The notes under the pieces were generated by a model, which made no database searches, was not told the origin of the DNA, and saw only the letters and a list, made by a program, of their open reading frames with translations. A DNA stretch of 64,000 nt from Planctomycetota bacterium (GTDB taxonomy: Bacteria > Planctomycetota > Brocadiia > Brocadiales > Brocadiaceae). Position 1 is the first letter of the stretch, and every line of letters begins with the position of its first letter. The stretch is from the NCBI GenBank assembly GCA_016188675.1, contig JACPHJ010000092.1, positions 1-64,000 of the forward strand. Direction: 5' to 3'. Positions 35,500 through 45,015 of the stretch are shown here, in pieces. The position numbers and the translations under genes were made by a program.

Positions 35500-36138
35500 T
35501 CAATCCTTCTTTAGGAGACGGATTTGTTGTTTTTGCATCTTCTTGGGTCCTACTTCAATAAGCCTTGTCGCCTTGTAGATATAATCACCCATTGGTGTAT
35601 CGTCGTTATCCCCTTCGACTCCCATAGCATAAAATCTTACAGGATTCTGTACCAGGAAATCAGCCGAAGGCGCCTGCCATTTGATATGCCAGGACTTCTG
35701 GATGGTTCCCTTTTTCGTATGGGTCACAAAAAGTCCACTGCCTATTATCTGTACGTCATCCGCATCTTCAATAATGAAGTCACCCACTATTCGATTATCA
35801 TATCTATCCTGCGCTGTAATTTCAAACCCGTGGGATTCAGTATTCGACTTCTCAAAAGATATCAGTATATCCACGATTTGCCCCGGTGCGCATTTGTCAA
35901 CCACAAACAGCTTAAATTTAGCCTTACCAGAATCAATGGGATACTGGTAATGACATCCTAAAACACCGCAGGTATCCCAACTTCTTGGAGCATAAAATCT
36001 ATGACTATATCTATTATCGCCGCTACCTAAACAGGCAATGGGCGCGCCATCTGAATGTGCATACAAAGGGTTGTAAAACACACCCGATACCAGTACAAAC
36101 AAGACTATACAACAAATCCCCCTTAACCAGGTTTTCAT
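35500..36138 (-). CDS. Secreted Reeler-domain-like protein (cassette member A)
   Basis: A 212-residue product from the ATG at 36138, chosen because a signal peptide (residues about 5-27, ending LYAHS) starts there; the open frame extends 20 codons further. The mature part resembles Reeler / choice-of-anchor V domains: GFEITAQDRYDNRIVGDFII, LFVTHTKKG, SWHIKWQAPSADF, and FYAMGVEGDNDDTPMGDYIY. The N-terminal WDTCGVLGCHYQYP has two Cys that may form a disulfide. Such domains are often attached to cytochrome or DOMON proteins. The partner gene downstream is decayed. Confidence 0.75.
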   Translation of the reverse strand: MKTWLRGICCIVLFVLVSGVFYNPLYAHSDGAPIACLGSGDNRYSHRFYAPRSWDTCGVLGCHYQYPIDSGKAKFKLFVVDKCAPGQIVDILISFEKSNTESHGFEITAQDRYDNRIVGDFIIEDADDVQIIGSGLFVTHTKKGTIQKSWHIKWQAPSADFLVQNPVRFYAMGVEGDNDDTPMGDYIYKATRLIEVGPKKMQKQQIRLLKKD

Positions 36139-36200
36139 AAACTTTTCATTGTATGTATCCTTAAACACAAAAAACCGAAACCGACAGGCAATTCCCATTT

Positions 36201-37562
36201 TTAGTCCTTTTTACTTGATAATGATGATTTAATCAACTCTATACCGTAACTTACCGGCACACCAAAATTAGATCCACGAAATCCCGGAAATACACCATAA
36301 TTAACCCCGATTACCTTCCCCTTATTATTAAAAATAGGACCGCCACTGCCCCCGGCAGTGGTTTGAGCATCGTAAACAATCCTATTTTGCATAATGTCAC
36401 TTAAATGACCTTGCGTTGAAAGCGGCCTGATCAGACCCCAATTTGAAAGTTCCTGTACGAGCGGAACAAACGGCATGTTAAAAAGCTGCTTCACAATGTC
36501 AGGGTCTGTCTTTGCAAAAATGGCATTTACCCCTGCCGGATAACCCAACAATATTATTGGTTCACCTACCACCGCGCCGCGTCCCGTTAAGTCTAATTCG
36601 AGAGGGGGGATTTTTGCGCCTCGCTTGTCTATGCGAAGCAGTGCAACGTCTACCTCATCAGAAATTTTCTCTACCTTCAAAGGAAACGGTTCTTTAATGC
36701 CGGGGAAAAATGCCCTGAATATTTCAAATCTCGGCTTAATCGTGGGCTCTAAATGAATATACGGAGACATTTCCATCTCCCACCATGGTTCGGCAATATG
36801 GCGATTGGTCATGATTAATCCATCATCACTGACCAGGAAGCCAGTACCTGTGTACTCATTGATACCCCGTTGCCCCCTGCCCATCATCATTAGCGGTTCA
36901 CCAGTCGTTTCGTCAAGGAAATAAAACGTTCCCTGTATCAGGCATATCCCGCCGCTATAAGTCTTAATTATATTCTCAGCAACAGACCTTTCTACCTCGA
37001 GGGTACGCACTATCTCCACTGTCTTCGATAATCTGGCGTACTGGGTATAAAAATATAACACCAAACTACCGGCAATGATAACCATGATAGTTACAATACC
37101 TATCTTAAATGAGTGAGAGGATTGGGTAAAGGCTTCCCACAGAAGTTGCTTGAAAAAAGCAGTTGCCGTATTAAGCCTTCCCATGCGGGAGGAACGTGCT
37201 ATACCCAGTGAATCTTCCAGCATCTCAGACAAAGGTTTACATACATCCGCTTCATCCGTTTTAATTCGGAATCGCACCCTGGGACCGCCAGCGCCAAACT
37301 CAATCAAATCGCCGTCTTTCAGTACAATTTCATTAATTGATCTGTTGTTTACCAGTGTTCCATGCAGGCTTCCCTTATCCCGTAATACAAAATCACATTC
37401 ATTTAATTGTATTTCGGCATGCTGATTTGATGTGTTACTGTCTATATCGGGATCAAAACGAAGGTCATTTGAAGCGTCTGTTCCAATAGATATCTTTTCA
37501 GAAGCAAAAACTTCTGTATTTCCCCGGTGACTGCCTACTAAATGGACAAAGACGGCCTTCAA
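36201..37562 (-). CDS. FHA-domain transmembrane trypsin-like serine protease
   Basis: A 453-residue product from the TTG at 37562, which has GGAAG seven bases upstream; the open frame reaches 37637. The N-terminal FHA domain (residues about 1-100; ISIGTDASNDLRF, then SNQHAEI and GTLVNN) would bind phosphothreonine in the cytoplasm. One TM helix (about 160-180) follows. The periplasmic trypsin-like domain shows the catalytic triad: His in IMTNRHIAEP, Asp in VDVALLRID, and Ser in TTAGGSGGPIFN. This is an HtrA-like layout without PDZ domains. It could convert a phosphorylation signal into proteolysis across the membrane. Substrate unknown. Confidence 0.82.
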   Translation of the reverse strand: MKAVFVHLVGSHRGNTEVFASEKISIGTDASNDLRFDPDIDSNTSNQHAEIQLNECDFVLRDKGSLHGTLVNNRSINEIVLKDGDLIEFGAGGPRVRFRIKTDEADVCKPLSEMLEDSLGIARSSRMGRLNTATAFFKQLLWEAFTQSSHSFKIGIVTIMVIIAGSLVLYFYTQYARLSKTVEIVRTLEVERSVAENIIKTYSGGICLIQGTFYFLDETTGEPLMMMGRGQRGINEYTGTGFLVSDDGLIMTNRHIAEPWWEMEMSPYIHLEPTIKPRFEIFRAFFPGIKEPFPLKVEKISDEVDVALLRIDKRGAKIPPLELDLTGRGAVVGEPIILLGYPAGVNAIFAKTDPDIVKQLFNMPFVPLVQELSNWGLIRPLSTQGHLSDIMQNRIVYDAQTTAGGSGGPIFNNKGKVIGVNYGVFPGFRGSNFGVPVSYGIELIKSSLSSKKD

Positions 37563-37654
37563 AATATGGCTTCCTTCTTTTTGCAAACTTAGGACGGACA
37601 AACAAGTTAGTCCGTGCCTGAGACTTAAGAAGTTCAAAATGAAGGGGTAGTAGT

Positions 37655-37708: not shown

Positions 37709-38260
37709 TTATATGATTCCCTTGCGGCTGTAACATTCATCCTTCAGCACTGCTATAAAAGGCAAATTTCTGTATTTGTTATTGTAATCTAATCCGTACC
37801 CAACAACAAAATCATCGCCGATGTCAAAACAGCAATATTCGGGCTGGATATTAAAACGTCTCCTGCCCGATCTGTTCAAAAGGACACAACTCTTGAGCGT
37901 TCTGGGCTTGTATTTTTTAATATCACCCAATACCCTTTTCAAAGTACTTCCCGTATCGGCGATATCATCAATCACCAATACATGTTTACCCTCTATGTCA
38001 ATCTTAAATTGACGATTGATCTTGGTGTCCGCCGTTGGAAAAGTAGACTCGCCGTACGTAGCGGCATCAATGGTATCCAGTCTGATAGGATAAGGAATCA
38101 GCCTAATCAGGTCAGCAAGAAACACCAGGCTTCCGTTAAGGATCGCAATAATTGTCCACTCTTTACCCGTATAATCACTGATTAATGTCTTCGACAATTC
38201 AAGGAGTTTATTACGAATCTGCCCTTCGTCGATCACTATCTTTGCAATATCCTTTTCCAC
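37709..38260 (-). CDS. hpt: Hypoxanthine phosphoribosyltransferase
   Basis: Purine salvage: converts hypoxanthine (and guanine) plus PRPP to IMP or GMP. It has 183 residues, with the PRPP-binding motif VLVIDDIADTGSTLKRVL (residues about 95-112), an N-terminal region WTIIAILNGSLVFLADLIR, and the C-terminal DDFVVGYGLDYNNKYRNLPFI, where the Asp and Tyr bind the base. tilS and ftsH are adjacent to hpt in many genomes but not here. Confidence 0.95.
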   Translation of the reverse strand: MEKDIAKIVIDEGQIRNKLLELSKTLISDYTGKEWTIIAILNGSLVFLADLIRLIPYPIRLDTIDAATYGESTFPTADTKINRQFKIDIEGKHVLVIDDIADTGSTLKRVLGDIKKYKPRTLKSCVLLNRSGRRRFNIQPEYCCFDIGDDFVVGYGLDYNNKYRNLPFIAVLKDECYSRKGII

Positions 38261-38297: not shown

Positions 38298-40244
38298 TTA
38301 CTTCGGTTTATGGGTAGTATGGGTTTTAATCACCTTCTTTGCGCGAAAGGTAAGATACCAACTTATCGCTATTGCTATTGGCACAAAAACGGCTTTTGCA
38401 GTAGTTAAGGAGACATTAATAATATGACTCGCTTCTAAACTTTCAAAAACAAAGCCAAACAAATGGATGGTATAGTACGAAAGAACAATCACAGATAAAC
38501 CTTCCACCGTATGCTGCATCATCATCTGGGTCTTTGTTGTTTCATCCATACTGCGTTGAAGTTCCAAACTTTGTTCCTGTAAAATGAGGTCTATTTTCGT
38601 GCGTAACATGGTAATCAAATCCGCCATTTCTCTCCGTATGCCATCTATGCGAATAAATAATCGCTGGTACTGCTCACCAAGGGTATCCACCCTTTCCAGG
38701 AAGAATCTGGAGAGCGCCGGATAATTAAATCCACCTTCGCTTTCTCCCCAATCCTTAATGACTCTCCGCATCACATCCCTTTTCAAAAGGGTGTCGTTCA
38801 TGTGATGCCGTGATTCCTCTGCAATTCCGGAAATCTCACCGAAATTATTGCTTAATCCATGCAACCACACTTTTAACGCTTCAGGAAGGGCGTTTGGCAA
38901 ATTCATGCTGATAATACGCATCTTGGATACAATGGTAGATTCCAAAACATCCAGTTTGTCTATAGCTAAAATATATCGCTGCCTTTCCACACTCAATAGT
39001 TGATAATTAGTCTCCAATGTAACAATCTCTTCGACAATTTTATCGAGCATCTGATCCTCCGGCGATATAACAAATGTATCTTTCCCGGTTCCCTCCGCTT
39101 CAAAACCTGCAGCAACTTTATACTTATCATAAATATGACTCATATATCCTTGTTTGGGTAAAAGAAGTTGCAAATCTTCTTTGGCGCAGGCAACACCTGG
39201 GACAATCAGGCAACACTCAAAGAGTTTATTTTTATGTTCAGGGACGTCTATCCTCTGGAAAAGTTTATCCACATTCGTTAATTTTCCGTCAACTGCCGTA
39301 CAAATAATTTGATAAGTGTATACCTCGGGATCCTGTCTCAGTTTTATTGTAACCTTCGTATCGTTAATAATATTACTTGCATAAGCGGTATCTTCGTTCC
39401 ACTGAACAGTAGCAGACTGGATATCCGGGCTGTCAGCCATTCTTACAAATCCCTCTCTGGCTTTATTTTTATCAACTATATCCTGCATAAAGCCGATTAC
39501 TTTTATACGAGTCTTAAGCGGGATTGCAGGCGCTCCAACCACTGCTTCGGGCACTTCTTCTGTTATAAATACTGCACTCTTTCCTCCTGTTTCCGTCCTT
39601 TCCCTCGAGTCAGGCACATATTCAGGCAAAGAGGGATCACTAGCAATAAAACGGTCCGATACGAATAACGAGCAATAACACCTTCCGTTCTTTTCGACAT
39701 CCAGAAAACAATAGGAACACGGGCAAATGATATCGCAGTCCAACTGGTACTTCCCGGTAGCCAAACGGCAGGGACAAGCCTTATACCCATAGCGTTTCTC
39801 GTTTTTAGCCAGTCCCACAAGAATTTCTTCAACTACATTTTCATCCGGATTAATTGTGTAGCCATGGCTCTTTGCCTCACGCAGCAACCATTCGCGCATT
39901 TTTTCGATAGTTTCCCGGAGGTCTTCATCCTCTCTATATAAGCCTGACTTGACTCCACTATCTTCTGATTTAGTCCTTTCATGTTCGTCTTTTTGAGGCG
40001 GTAACTTTAACAAATGACGCAGCCTGGACTCGTGAAATCCGATTACACAGGTACCATCAATATAGGTTACGGGAAATGAACGTTGTTTACTGAGATGATA
40101 GGACTCTGCGATAGCCTTTTCCTGCTCGTTTCCAGCCAGCAAATCGATCACAATGGATTTGTAATTTACGCCATGTTTTTTAAAAAATGTCTCAACCTTA
40201 TCACACCAATGACAGGTTGATATTCTATACACTCTCACATCCAT
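38298..40244 (-). CDS. Glutaredoxin / ferredoxin-thioredoxin reductase beta / DUF3422 fusion
   Basis: A 648-residue protein with three parts. Residues 1-80 form a glutaredoxin-like domain with active site CHWC (11-14) and a TYIDG cis-Pro-like region. Residues about 110-195 match the catalytic beta chain of ferredoxin:thioredoxin reductase: CPCR (157-160), CPC (174-176) and CYC (189-191) in KACPCRLATG, DIICPCSYC and NGRCYCSLF, which would hold a 4Fe-4S cluster next to a redox disulfide. Residues about 235-640 resemble membrane protein DUF3422, with a long coiled-coil stretch, the VEGLSVIVLSYY helix and a second C-terminal TM helix. FTR normally pairs with a small alpha chain, which is not present here. 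Function inferred as membrane-tethered thiol reduction. Confidence 0.78.
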   Translation of the reverse strand: MDVRVYRISTCHWCDKVETFFKKHGVNYKSIVIDLLAGNEQEKAIAESYHLSKQRSFPVTYIDGTCVIGFHESRLRHLLKLPPQKDEHERTKSEDSGVKSGLYREDEDLRETIEKMREWLLREAKSHGYTINPDENVVEEILVGLAKNEKRYGYKACPCRLATGKYQLDCDIICPCSYCFLDVEKNGRCYCSLFVSDRFIASDPSLPEYVPDSRERTETGGKSAVFITEEVPEAVVGAPAIPLKTRIKVIGFMQDIVDKNKAREGFVRMADSPDIQSATVQWNEDTAYASNIINDTKVTIKLRQDPEVYTYQIICTAVDGKLTNVDKLFQRIDVPEHKNKLFECCLIVPGVACAKEDLQLLLPKQGYMSHIYDKYKVAAGFEAEGTGKDTFVISPEDQMLDKIVEEIVTLETNYQLLSVERQRYILAIDKLDVLESTIVSKMRIISMNLPNALPEALKVWLHGLSNNFGEISGIAEESRHHMNDTLLKRDVMRRVIKDWGESEGGFNYPALSRFFLERVDTLGEQYQRLFIRIDGIRREMADLITMLRTKIDLILQEQSLELQRSMDETTKTQMMMQHTVEGLSVIVLSYYTIHLFGFVFESLEASHIINVSLTTAKAVFVPIAIAISWYLTFRAKKVIKTHTTHKPK

Positions 40245-40280: not shown

Positions 40281-40631
40281 TTATAACCTTCTGATGTCGT
40301 AATCACCGCCTATTTCGATCAATTCAAATATAACGCCACACATCCGGCATCTCGCCTGGTCCCCGACGCCGGGCTTTTTCCCAAAATTAACCTCCCACCC
40401 ACACACAGGACAATAAAACTTCGCCTCATGTTCCCCGTCCCGAATAAATTGTATTAGTCTTTGAAGGCCGTTCACGTGTCCTGTTTCTGCCTTAGCAAAT
40501 TCTATAAACATCTCCTTTAATTGCGGATCGGAAACTTTTTCTGCAAATTCATTATATATCCGCACGGCATCCTTCTCAAACGCAAGGTCGGCCTCAATCA
40601 TTTTGATTATCGACAAATATCCATGATGCAT
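40281..40631 (-). CDS. Rubrerythrin-like half-ferritin with zinc ribbon
   Basis: A 116-residue protein. Residues about 5-65 form only two ferritin-type helices (EADLAFEKDAVRIYNEFAEKV and EMFIEFAKAETGHVNGLQRL) with a Glu and an E-x-x-H pair rather than a four-helix bundle, so dimerisation would be needed to build a di-iron site. Residues about 73-105 have a rubredoxin/zinc-ribbon pattern (CPVCGWEVNF, then CRMCGVIF). Full rubrerythrins are about 190 residues and reduce peroxide. It lies 36 bases upstream of the glutaredoxin-FTR fusion and probably belongs with it. Confidence 0.75.
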   Translation of the reverse strand: MHHGYLSIIKMIEADLAFEKDAVRIYNEFAEKVSDPQLKEMFIEFAKAETGHVNGLQRLIQFIRDGEHEAKFYCPVCGWEVNFGKKPGVGDQARCRMCGVIFELIEIGGDYDIRRL

Positions 40632-40756: not shown

Positions 40757-40973
40757 TTGCTATCTTATCGCTGCCGCTTCCAATCAATCGTAGAATATGC
40801 CCCCGAATAATCTTTTCGTGATCAACTTCGTTTCTATGAAGTCCTTCCAACAGGGTGTGGATTTCCGGGTCCTTCACAATATCATGCTGCTCCTGATACC
40901 GTTTCGTCGCCTCAATTTCCAAGGCAAGCGCTTGTTCGAGTATTTTTAGGTCGTTTTCCCTGGTATTATTCAT
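40722..40973 (-). CDS. Two-helix ferritin-like protein
   Basis: An 83-residue protein with two amphipathic helices (residues about 8-31 and 36-65) bearing EIEATKRYQEQ and NEVDHEKII, the Glu and E-x-x-H arrangement of half-ferritins that dimerise around iron. No targeting tail or encapsulin gene is seen. The last 12 residues come from a palindromic repeat. Its start overlaps the end of the TPR lipoprotein gene by 4 bases (ATGA), indicating translational coupling. Confidence 0.65.
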   Translation of the reverse strand: MNNTRENDLKILEQALALEIEATKRYQEQHDIVKDPEIHTLLEGLHRNEVDHEKIIRGHILRLIGSGSDKIANPLLNPLRGGE

Positions 40974-41692
40974 CGTTCCCGCCTTTCCATTTCAAGCTGT
41001 TTCAGTATTCGATTTTCCTCAAATGCCTCTTCAGCTTTTCCCAGTTTGTCGTAAACAGCAAGCAGAATGCTGTGTGCCTTTTCAGATTTCGGATTCAACT
41101 GAATTGCCTTTTTAAACTCTGCAATAGCTTCATCAAACATATTCTTTTTATAGTAACAAACACCGAAAAAATAATGTCCATCTTCCAATTCTGGATTAAT
41201 TTCTACTGCCTTTTTACACGCATTAAATGCGTCTTCCTGTTTTTCGATCAGACTATAAGCAACCGCCAGATAAAGATACCCATCGGCTTCTTTTTTGTCT
41301 TTATTTGCAGCATACAATTCTATCGCTTTTTCATATTCAGAAATTGCCTCAGCAACTTTTTCCTTAGCTACATAGGCAAAGGCAATGTTATAATATGCCT
41401 TAGGTTCGTCGGGGTTCACTTCAATAGCCTTTTTCAGTTCCGCTATTGATTCGTCATGCATATTTTTTGCATAATAAGCAATGCCCAGATTGAAATGCGC
41501 GTCGTAATGCTTCTGGTTCAGTTCCAGCGCCTTTTTAAATTCCACAATTGCCTCGTCGAACTTCCTTTTATTATAGAGATAAAGCCCCTCTTTATTATGG
41601 TAATCTGCCTTGTTCCCACATCCTGCCATTATGCAAAATACTAATAACAATATCCATTTAAGGTCTGCAAAGATTCTATTCTTTATCAGCAT
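40970..41692 (-). CDS. TPR-repeat lipoprotein
   Basis: A 240-residue protein with a lipoprotein signal (residues 11-25, ending IMAGC, with Cys 25 the expected lipidation site) followed by six tetratricopeptide repeats (for example YNKRKFDEAIVEFKKALEL and YYKKNMFDEAIAEFKKAIQL). TPR lipoproteins scaffold envelope complexes. It lies 4 bases downstream of the response regulator-diguanylate cyclase gene and overlaps the half-ferritin gene, so it is in the centre of a long operon. Confidence 0.85.
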   Translation of the reverse strand: MLIKNRIFADLKWILLLVFCIMAGCGNKADYHNKEGLYLYNKRKFDEAIVEFKKALELNQKHYDAHFNLGIAYYAKNMHDESIAELKKAIEVNPDEPKAYYNIAFAYVAKEKVAEAISEYEKAIELYAANKDKKEADGYLYLAVAYSLIEKQEDAFNACKKAVEINPELEDGHYFFGVCYYKKNMFDEAIAEFKKAIQLNPKSEKAHSILLAVYDKLGKAEEAFEENRILKQLEMERRER

Positions 41693-41696
41693 CGGT

Positions 41697-42665
41697 CTAT
41701 CCTATTCCTTCTTCTTTGTAATCAACTATCTGTTTCCCATCATAATAACATACCTTGTTCTTTCCCGACTTCTTTGCGTGATACATAGCATCGTCGGCCT
41801 TCCTGATTAATCCCTCCTTAGAGAGCGCGTCTTCAGGATAAGTTGCTAAACCAATACTCATGGTAATTGTTTTGCATGGAAGCACATCGGCATACATCCA
41901 TTTTTTAGAGCGAATTGCCTGAATTAAGTGGCAGGCCACGCGCAAGCTGCCATCAATCACCGTGTCGGGCAGTATTGCCGCAAATTCTTCACCGCCATAT
42001 CTTGACACGAAGTCTGTCTTTCTCGTTGTATTTAGAAATATTATGGCTAATTCACGAAGCACCTCATCTCCTGCCAGATGACCATTCACATCGTTGTATT
42101 GTTTAAAATTATCCACATCCGCAAACAATAGCGTAAATGCGCTGGAATTTCTCCTCGTCCTTTGCAACTCACGGTCTAAAAATTCATGAAAATATCTATG
42201 ATTATAAACCTTGGTCAGACCATCCGTAATAGAAAGGTGCTTGTAATGCTTTACCATGCGCGATTCCCGCAATAACCGCTGCCGTTCCACAGCTTTTTCT
42301 ACAACGACCTTCATTTCCTCAAGCTCAAACGGTTTGCAAATGTAGTCGTATGCGCCGAGCTTCATAGCGCTAACAGCGGATTCAACGGTACTATAGGCGG
42401 TTATAATCAATACACATATATCAGGGTTTATCTTTAATATGTGATGTAATAATTCCATGCCGCTTATACCGGGCATTTTAAGATCGGTAATGACAATTTC
42501 AAATGGTTCGGTTTCAATTTGTGAGATCGCTTGCTGCCCGTCCTTTGCTGTTCTTACTTTGTATCCCGTATTGGAAAGTGTATCGTGAAGCAAATTGCGA
42601 ACTATTTCTTCATCGTCAACAACAAGTATTCGCACCTGCTCAACTGCTTCCATCATTGCGTTCAT
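41697..42665 (-). CDS. Response regulator with GGDEF diguanylate cyclase
   Basis: A 322-residue PleD-like protein. Receiver domain residues about 9-125: VDDEEIVRNLL (acidic pocket), phosphorylated Asp in VITDLKMPGISGMELL, and Lys in DYICKPFEL. The cyclase domain begins near 150 (SITDGLTKVYNHRYFHEFLD) and has an intact active site RYGGEEFAAILP, making c-di-GMP from GTP. An inhibitory RxxD site is not obvious. It is likely phosphorylated by the upstream histidine kinase and so converts the signal to c-di-GMP. Confidence 0.93.
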   Translation of the reverse strand: MNAMMEAVEQVRILVVDDEEIVRNLLHDTLSNTGYKVRTAKDGQQAISQIETEPFEIVITDLKMPGISGMELLHHILKINPDICVLIITAYSTVESAVSAMKLGAYDYICKPFELEEMKVVVEKAVERQRLLRESRMVKHYKHLSITDGLTKVYNHRYFHEFLDRELQRTRRNSSAFTLLFADVDNFKQYNDVNGHLAGDEVLRELAIIFLNTTRKTDFVSRYGGEEFAAILPDTVIDGSLRVACHLIQAIRSKKWMYADVLPCKTITMSIGLATYPEDALSKEGLIRKADDAMYHAKKSGKNKVCYYDGKQIVDYKEEGIG

Positions 42666-42728: not shown

Positions 42729-43139
42729 CTACAATTGTCGTTGCCGTTTTGCTGCTTTATCCACAATATTTTTCATTTCACTAAGCTCAAACGGTTTACA
42801 AATGTAATCATATGCGCCCAGTTTAATCGCATTAATTGCAGATTTTATATTACCATATGCCGTCATAAGTAATATGCACAAGTTCGGATTCTCCTTTTGC
42901 AATCGTATTAATAATTCCATCCCGCTAATATCAGGCATTTTAATGTCGGTAATCACGATATCAAAAGATTCACGTTCAATTTGTGCAATCGCATCGTTGC
43001 CGTCTTTTGCCGTTTTCACCGTGTAACCGGCCTGTGACAGCGTGTCGAAAAGCATATCACGAATTATTTGTTCGTCATCAACTACCAGTATCCGTACCGG
43101 CTTCTTTTCTGCTTCCGTCAGGGTGTTCATTCTTATCAC
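42729..43139 (-). CDS. Single-domain response regulator
   Basis: A 136-residue receiver domain with VDDEQIIRDML, phosphorylatable Asp in VITDIKMPDISGMELL, and DYICKPFELSEMK. It has no output domain. It overlaps the histidine kinase gene by about 60 bases at its start (a second in-frame ATG at 43130 gives a slightly shorter protein). It closely resembles the receiver of the next gene, so the pair probably arose by duplication. It may act as a phosphate sink or protein-interaction regulator. Confidence 0.9.
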   Translation of the reverse strand: MIRMNTLTEAEKKPVRILVVDDEQIIRDMLFDTLSQAGYTVKTAKDGNDAIAQIERESFDIVITDIKMPDISGMELLIRLQKENPNLCILLMTAYGNIKSAINAIKLGAYDYICKPFELSEMKNIVDKAAKRQRQL

Positions 43140-45015
43140 TCTTTACAGGTAAAATTATTGTAAAAACCGCCCCTTTACCCAACTGACTGTTCACCACAAT
43201 ATTTCCATTATGATTTTTTATAATATCATAACATATAGATAAACCAAGTCCAGTCCCTTTCCAATTCATCTTTGTTGTAAAAAACGGTTCAAATATTCTA
43301 TCTTTATACTCTTCGGGAATACCACATCCGGTATCCTTAAATTCTATGATCACAGTTTCATTTTCATTTCTTGTCGAGATGAATAACTGACCACCTTCGG
43401 GCATCGCTTGCTGGGCATTAACAATTATGTTGGTAAACACCTGCTGTAACTGTATTGGATTTCCAAGGATCAGGTTTACGCATTCATCTAAATTTTTAAT
43501 CACCACGATCTTATTCACTAAAAGCTGATGTTCTATGAGAGCTAATGTATCCTCCATAACACCATTCACATCCAATGATATAAAATCTTCAGGTGCTTTC
43601 CTTGCAAACTGAAGCAGATTCTGTATTATTTCTTTACAACGACGAGAACCATTCTCTATGTGTTGTAAATATTTCTTAAATGTACGAACATCTTCTATTT
43701 TTAAGTTTTCTTTTGATATGGTATCCAGCATAAATTGCGCGTAACCAAGGATACCTGCTATAGGGTTATTCAATTCGTGTGCAACACCAGCCCCCAATTG
43801 ACCAATGGCTGCCAATTTACCTGTCTGTACCAATTGATGTTGTTTCTCCCGCAATTCTTTAGTTCTTTCTTCCACCTTCTTTTCTAATGTAACGTTTAGT
43901 AAACTGATCTTATTGAACGCATCGTGTAATGCCTCGGTTTTACTTTGTATTTCCTGACGCGCCTTATCCAGTCGAACTATCATATCGTTAAAAGATGCCA
44001 CTAATAAGCCAATTTCATCTTTACTCTTTATACTTGCTTTGTAACTCAAATCACCATCAGACACCCTGGACATTCCATGTATTAAAGCCAGTATAGGGCT
44101 TACGATACGCCTTGACACGAATATGCTTGTTAATATTACCAGGGCCAGGCTTATAATTAAAGTATATATGACTTTGTATTTTAACCTCGACAAATTTGAT
44201 AAGGCATCTCTTTTTTCCTGCGCAACTACTATTTGCCATTTTGGCGACTCATAATCCATTTTATTTATATACTTCTCTGTATTGTAAATGAATCTTTCTG
44301 AATCAGTACCGATGGCTTCAACAATTCCAGATTGTTTATCCGTATCAAAAGGAGCCTGCTGGAACAGCTTTTCTTTGCTTGGATGAGCGACAAAGCAACG
44401 CTGGTCATTTACAATAGTAACAAAACCCGTTTTCCCAATTGTTATATGATCAGTAATCTCCCACAGGCGCTCCATATTAAGTTGTCCAACGAGGGCTGCT
44501 TGTATTTTCCCATTTCCATCCGTTAAAGGAACAGCAATGGCAATAACGACCTTATACGGATCGAGAATGACATGGGCATCTGAAACATACACATTCCCTT
44601 TTATCGCTTCAAGAAACCACTTTTTGGATCTCCATTCGCCGCGATAATTATATGTGGTAGAAGTTATTACACGACCCTTTGTATCGATCATGGTAATGTC
44701 TTCAAAACGTTTGTAATAATCCTGAATTTTTCTCATGGCTAATAACTTCTTATCTGCATGAATTTCGGTATTCTCCATGTCTTCACTTTCCGCCAGTATC
44801 TTCATGTCAGCCACACAGCTATACATAAAGCGACTTACTTCTTCCTCGGTATTTTTAGCCAGCAACCCAAGATTATTACAGGCGTCGTCTCTTATAAGAC
44901 CCTCGGTATATTTAAACAAAAAGAATATCCCAGTAAATAAGGGTAAAAGACCTACTAGCGTAAAAGGAAGGGCTATTTTAAAACCTAATTTTCTGAAAAA
45001 ACTTATATTCCCCAA
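43078..45015 (-). CDS. Sensor histidine kinase with periplasmic Cache-type domain
   Basis: A 645-residue inner-membrane kinase. TM1 (residues about 13-32), a long periplasmic sensor (about 33-280) of double-Cache style (TMIDTKGRVITSTTYNYRGEW; VLDPYKVVIAIAVPLTDGNG), TM2 (about 283-305), a HAMP linker, a coiled coil, the H-box HELNNPIAGILGYAQF, and a catalytic ATPase domain (NIIVNAQQAMPEGG, DTGCGIPEEYKDRIFEPFF, GTGLGLSICYDI). Cache domains typically bind amino acids, amines or organic acids. The upstream binding-protein gene (9 bases away) suggests that it senses through that protein. Confidence 0.92.
   Translation of the reverse strand: MGNISFFRKLGFKIALPFTLVGLLPLFTGIFFLFKYTEGLIRDDACNNLGLLAKNTEEEVSRFMYSCVADMKILAESEDMENTEIHADKKLLAMRKIQDYYKRFEDITMIDTKGRVITSTTYNYRGEWRSKKWFLEAIKGNVYVSDAHVILDPYKVVIAIAVPLTDGNGKIQAALVGQLNMERLWEITDHITIGKTGFVTIVNDQRCFVAHPSKEKLFQQAPFDTDKQSGIVEAIGTDSERFIYNTEKYINKMDYESPKWQIVVAQEKRDALSNLSRLKYKVIYTLIISLALVILTSIFVSRRIVSPILALIHGMSRVSDGDLSYKASIKSKDEIGLLVASFNDMIVRLDKARQEIQSKTEALHDAFNKISLLNVTLEKKVEERTKELREKQHQLVQTGKLAAIGQLGAGVAHELNNPIAGILGYAQFMLDTISKENLKIEDVRTFKKYLQHIENGSRRCKEIIQNLLQFARKAPEDFISLDVNGVMEDTLALIEHQLLVNKIVVIKNLDECVNLILGNPIQLQQVFTNIIVNAQQAMPEGGQLFISTRNENETVIIEFKDTGCGIPEEYKDRIFEPFFTTKMNWKGTGLGLSICYDIIKNHNGNIVVNSQLGKGAVFTIILPVKSDKNEHPDGSRKEAGTDTGS

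Follow-up and report, generated by a model that had tools for sequence, protein, structure and literature searches.

A conserved three-module fusion of glutaredoxin, ferredoxin:disulfide reductase and DUF3422 domains in Brocadiaceae

The locus and its operon

The window (the whole 64,000-nucleotide stretch of contig JACPHJ010000092.1 that was analysed, from a planctomycetote of the Brocadiaceae) carries a long minus-strand open reading frame whose product combines a glutaredoxin (Grx) domain, the catalytic domain of ferredoxin:thioredoxin reductase (FTR), here of the ferredoxin:disulfide reductase (FDR) kind, and a DUF3422 region (Table 1). All three Pfam domains score above their curated cut-offs: Glutaredoxin (PF00462) at residues 3-67 (E 5.5e-9, 36.5 bits against 22.9), FeThRed_B (PF02943) at residues 113-198 (E 9.7e-21, 74.3 bits against 22) and DUF3422 (PF11902) at residues 508-637 (E 6.9e-25, 88.5 bits against 25), the last match spanning only profile positions 288-416 of 418, that is, the final ~130. 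The matches are far beyond chance, and the orthologs are full length. The three-part fusion that the first-pass annotation had read at this position is therefore borne out, as are its glutaredoxin with a CHWC site within residues 1-80 and the resemblance of the C-terminal two-thirds to DUF3422 with transmembrane (TM) helices, for which the Pfam match is joined by a profile alignment over residues ~232-647 and by two C-terminal helices.

Table 1. Features of the fusion gene and its operon in the window.
Feature	Position	Strand	Evidence and remarks
Three-module protein, Grx - FTR/FDR catalytic - DUF3422, 648 aa	38298..40244	minus	ORF and orthologous frames
Glutaredoxin domain, residues 1-80, C11-H-W-C14 dithiol site	40005..40244	minus	Pfam PF00462; PDB 3nzn/3ic4/5cax
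FTR catalytic/ferredoxin:disulfide reductase domain, residues 113-198	39651..39908	minus	Pfam PF02943; PDB 7pwe/4tpu; cysteine comparison
DUF3422 region, residues 236-648	38301..39539	minus	Pfam PF11902 (508-637); hhalign; AF2 domain model
TM1 ~580-603 (VEGLSVIVLSYY), short loop, TM2 ~608-634, then basic tail	38343..38507	minus	Predicted from hydropathy and secondary structure
Rubrerythrin/ferritin-like protein, 116 aa, C-terminal CxxC...CxxC zinc ribbon	40281..40631	minus	Pfam; operon partner
Ferritin-like protein, 83 aa	40722..40973	minus	Pfam; kept beside fusion; operon partner
TPR protein, lipoprotein-like N-terminus	40970..41692	minus	Pfam TPR; operon partner; 4-base overlap with next gene
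Hypoxanthine phosphoribosyltransferase (hpt)	37709..38260	minus	TIGR01203 1.2e-47, over cut-off; directly downstream of fusion
FHA + trypsin-like peptidase protein	36201..37637	minus	Pfam; downstream; kept in most loci with enough flank
Choice-of-anchor V domain protein	35500..36198	minus	NF041895 4.2e-18; downstream; conserved

The gene order TPR, 83-aa ferritin-like, 116-aa rubrerythrin-like, fusion, hpt is kept in all full-length loci with flanks (7/7), with intergenic gaps of -4 to 90 bases in the window, and the loci usually continue beyond hpt into the FHA/trypsin and then the choice-of-anchor V proteins. In the FHA/trypsin-like protein, which is conserved in the operon, a hydrophobic stretch separates the two domains. 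Elsewhere in the window, two adjacent response regulators (42729-43139 and 41697-42665) have similar receiver domains, one of them with a GGDEF output domain, and a Cache/HAMP histidine kinase (43078-45015) lies beside them.

The two half-ferritins that had been noticed next to the fusion are confirmed by Pfam, both upstream genes being ferritin- or rubrerythrin-like. An ortholog of the 116-aa partner with 82-91% identity is present in nine of the ten fusion-bearing genomes, the contig of the tenth ending at the fusion, and no close ortholog was found in fusion-less Brocadiaceae, where at most a ~40% paralog occurs at another place in the genome. This paralog adjoins a longer protein that, read by eye, looks ferritin- or rubrerythrin-like in two genomes (G004 and G022). 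An encapsulin cargo link for the ferritin-like neighbours was considered and dropped, as the shell gene (PF04454) is absent from their own genome.

Distribution of the fusion

The fusion was sought in 59 related genomes and in one genome per species across 84,980 species, the latter scan using exact peptide patterns that detect close relatives only. The same fusion frame, with no internal stops and 60-85% identity to the window protein, is found in nine genomes from five genera of Brocadiaceae (the window's included), among them Candidatus Loosdrechtia aerotolerans. One of the nine orthologs (L006), lying at a contig end, begins with residue 12. A tenth genome (G012) has a fragment of the fusion at a contig edge. 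Since the same stop-free frame recurs in nine genomes of five genera, a sequencing or assembly error joining two genes, raised in the first-pass annotation, is ruled out. In 392 sampled genomes of the phylum, DUF3422 is seen in the fusions and as a stand-alone copy in one genome, and nowhere else. The fusion is thus real, conserved and, as far as sampled, limited to part of the Brocadiaceae.

The glutaredoxin and FTR modules

The glutaredoxin domain carries both the CxxC motif (C11-HW-C14) and the cis-Pro motif (F57-P58-V59), and its nearest solved chains are the Grx-like proteins of A. fulgidus and Methanosarcina, of the methanoredoxin type (3nzn, 3ic4 and 5cax). The FTR domain suspected at residues ~110-195 from a seven-cysteine signature is there, although the count was one short: it holds eight cysteines, six in the CPC/CPC/CxC motifs (C157, C159, C174, C176, C189 and C191) plus C170 and C179. 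The six motif cysteines, C11 and C14 are invariant in the full-length proteins aligned (8/8). By motif order, with the known plant FTR structures as guide, C157, C174, C176 and C189 would be the ligands of a [4Fe-4S] cluster, and C159-C191 would be the redox disulfide.

C170 and C179 are likewise invariant in the aligned fusions, and equivalents are absent from structures 7PWE and 4TPU and from the stand-alone FtrB proteins of relatives, in which the position of C179 is held by the histidine of CPCxYH. On this comparison, the two cysteines appear as a new, fusion-specific feature of the FTR domain.

Glutaredoxin and FTR are not paired here for the first time: a Desulfotalea psychrophila glutaredoxin/ferredoxin disulfide reductase fusion has been solved by crystallography (7PWE). 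It has both modules in the same order as the window protein, and the alignment is collinear for both Grx (7-82) and FTR (80-173). However, the 7PWE protein is only 196 aa long and lacks DUF3422 and any TM part as well as the two extra cysteines. Structure 4TPU, deposited as 'Rubredoxin', is an FTR-like ferredoxin:disulfide reductase of Methanosarcina acetivorans. Its FTR catalytic domain has the CPC/CPC/CYC motif and matches residues 111-216 of the window protein with 85 bits, but it comes with neither glutaredoxin nor membrane part. The plant-type FTR is partnered by the variable chain FtrA; FDRs function without FtrA. In the literature, FDRs are described as [4Fe-4S] enzymes that occur in both archaea and bacteria and act as reductants of thioredoxin-like proteins, with known examples in Methanosarcina (PMC6262447, PMC7278568). 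Of the arrangement with DUF3422 that was unfamiliar at the first-pass annotation, the Grx-FTR fusion was thus known beforehand, and the novelty is confined to the added DUF3422 module.

The DUF3422 region

When a profile of the eight fused proteins (from residue 214) was aligned with one of eight stand-alone DUF3422 proteins using hhalign, residues ~232-647 were matched over 390 columns (probability 99.2%, E 3e-19). From this match, the entire C-terminal two-thirds is most likely one DUF3422 domain with a diverged first half. Canonical DUF3422 proteins stand alone and are ~430 aa long, and in the eight homologs compared NE-x-HARP and H-x-E-F are invariant in the N-terminal half. Neither motif occurs in the aligned stretch of any fused protein, and the fused part is therefore named a divergent DUF3422 domain. 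The stalk and TM signature of the family are shared, with VEGLSV, SYY and the final P and W retained in the fusions, and the TM1 signature VEGLSVIVLSYY is also found in DUF3422 homologs. Judged from these alignments, the DUF3422 membrane module appears as the new component of the protein, having lost the N-terminal invariants and kept the stalk and TM signature.

In the AlphaFold2 (AF2) model of residues 236-648 (pLDDT 71.5, pTM 0.64), the divergent N-terminal part is predicted as an alpha/beta domain, followed by a long helical stalk and two C-terminal TM helices. The full-length model (pLDDT 51) is too poor for judging the distance between the glutaredoxin site and the FTR cluster. Relatives of DUF3422 sought in viral contigs for a deeper alignment were not found, and DUF155/RMND1, tried as a relative, gave no match, the controls being likewise silent.

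Two cysteines of this region, C344 (9/9 fused proteins) and C315 (8/9), are retained where few residues are invariant, while other cysteines there are sporadic, and C315 and C344 both lie on predicted beta strands of the alpha/beta subdomain. The Grx-FDR part might accordingly control DUF3422 through this pair, so that the membrane module would change its conformation or its activity with the state of ferredoxin. As C315 is a glycine in ortholog L006 and the pair has no counterpart in canonical DUF3422 proteins, we consider such an internal redox switch unlikely.

A fold comparison by Foldseek with the domain model ranks CorA and MRS2 chains first (E between 1e-4 and 5e-3, probabilities reaching 0.95), a weak hint that DUF3422 is laid out like CorA/MRS2: these magnesium channels likewise have an alpha/beta domain, a long stalk and two C-terminal TM helices. 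DUF3422 could then be a remote member or analogue of that architecture and the fusion a redox-gated ion transporter. In keeping with this, 11 of 14 Brocadiaceae genomes without the fusion have CorA (Pfam), as against 1-2 of 10 that carry it (Fisher p 0.003-0.011, uncorrected for kinship), although this contrast is confounded by shared ancestry. TM-scores to CorA/MRS2 are only 0.13-0.34, however, the GMN motif that lies between TM1 and TM2 in those channels is absent from the fusion, and the DUF3422 profile matches no solved chain. In a profile comparison by hhalign, DUF3422 and twelve CorA sequences gave no signal of homology (probability 0.2-0.5%). The transporter reading is thus very unlikely, and its fuller form, in which a remote CorA/MRS2-type membrane oligomer is gated by the built-in ferredoxin-driven thiol relay as a redox-gated transporter or sensor, is highly improbable.

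A proposed membrane-tethered thiol-reducing path

Neither family of glutamate-cysteine ligase (PF04262 or PF04107) was found in the 99.4%-complete genome, so that glutathione synthesis is undetectable in the host. The genome does encode one NADPH thioredoxin reductase over the cut-off and two further FtrB proteins, and therefore the fusion is not the sole thiol route.

The domains, the solved 7PWE fusion, the TM helices and the conserved cysteines together favour a membrane-tethered ferredoxin:disulfide reductase that feeds its own glutaredoxin arm and acts on target disulfides at the membrane. This agrees with the self-contained path from ferredoxin to thiols suggested in the first-pass annotation, and we regard it as the best reading and a reasonably probable one. 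Reduced ferredoxin would donate electrons one at a time to the FTR domain, whose [4Fe-4S] cluster would use them to reduce the C159-C191 disulfide; the resulting dithiol would reduce C11-C14 of the glutaredoxin, perhaps aided by C170 and C179, and the reduced glutaredoxin would then act on its targets. Because the host has no detectable glutathione synthesis, the glutaredoxin would depend on direct supply from FTR. With its stalk and the pair of TM helices at the C-terminus, the DUF3422 part may serve as anchor, and probably as oligomeriser, whereas its original activity has probably been lost. From these helices and the basic tail, a cytoplasmic orientation is suggested.

The physiological setting may be peroxide or iron stress, as the fusion is co-inherited with two ferritin/rubrerythrin-like proteins. 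The oxidative-stress role first proposed from adjacency now goes further, in that the operon is conserved and the genes co-occur, but, like the electron path and the anchoring role of DUF3422, it is put forward here as a proposal. That the operon also includes hpt, for which no connection with thiol redox is evident, counts against the membrane-tethered reductase as best explanation. If that reductase operates as outlined, bacteria of the anammox family, seemingly without glutathione synthesis, would possess a ferredoxin-wired, membrane-bound thiol-reducing system.

DUF3422 in formaldehyde clusters

No paper naming DUF3422 or COG4949 was found in the literature searched. The fusion had been expected to give a clue to this family, and it does hint at a link to thiol chemistry; the clue is nevertheless weaker than it seemed, because the fused copy lacks the family's invariant N-terminal residues.

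A second hint comes from plasmids, where 14 DUF3422 loci were examined, 12 of them with gene annotation. Half of the annotated loci (6/12) place DUF3422 in a glutathione-dependent formaldehyde cluster, in which a class III alcohol dehydrogenase is accompanied by fghA, by a VOC or gfa gene, or by both. DUF3422 adjoins such frmA/fghA-type genes in Klebsiella, E. coli, Acinetobacter, Sphingobium, Phaeobacter and Stutzerimonas. The clusters of the first two are near-identical and are counted as one event. These neighbourhoods could mean that the fused DUF3422 part keeps a thiol- or aldehyde-related family activity, with Grx-FDR substituting for the glutathione chemistry of the formaldehyde-cluster proteins. 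That reading is a long shot, as the other six annotated plasmid loci have no formaldehyde-cluster context and the fused copies are without the NE-x-HARP and H-x-E-F invariants.

The fusion and the formaldehyde clusters are nonetheless independent pointers that hint at a thiol-linked chemistry of DUF3422, and this double connection makes the function of the widespread family directly testable. Several of the mobile formaldehyde clusters with DUF3422 also have uvrA or uvrB close by.
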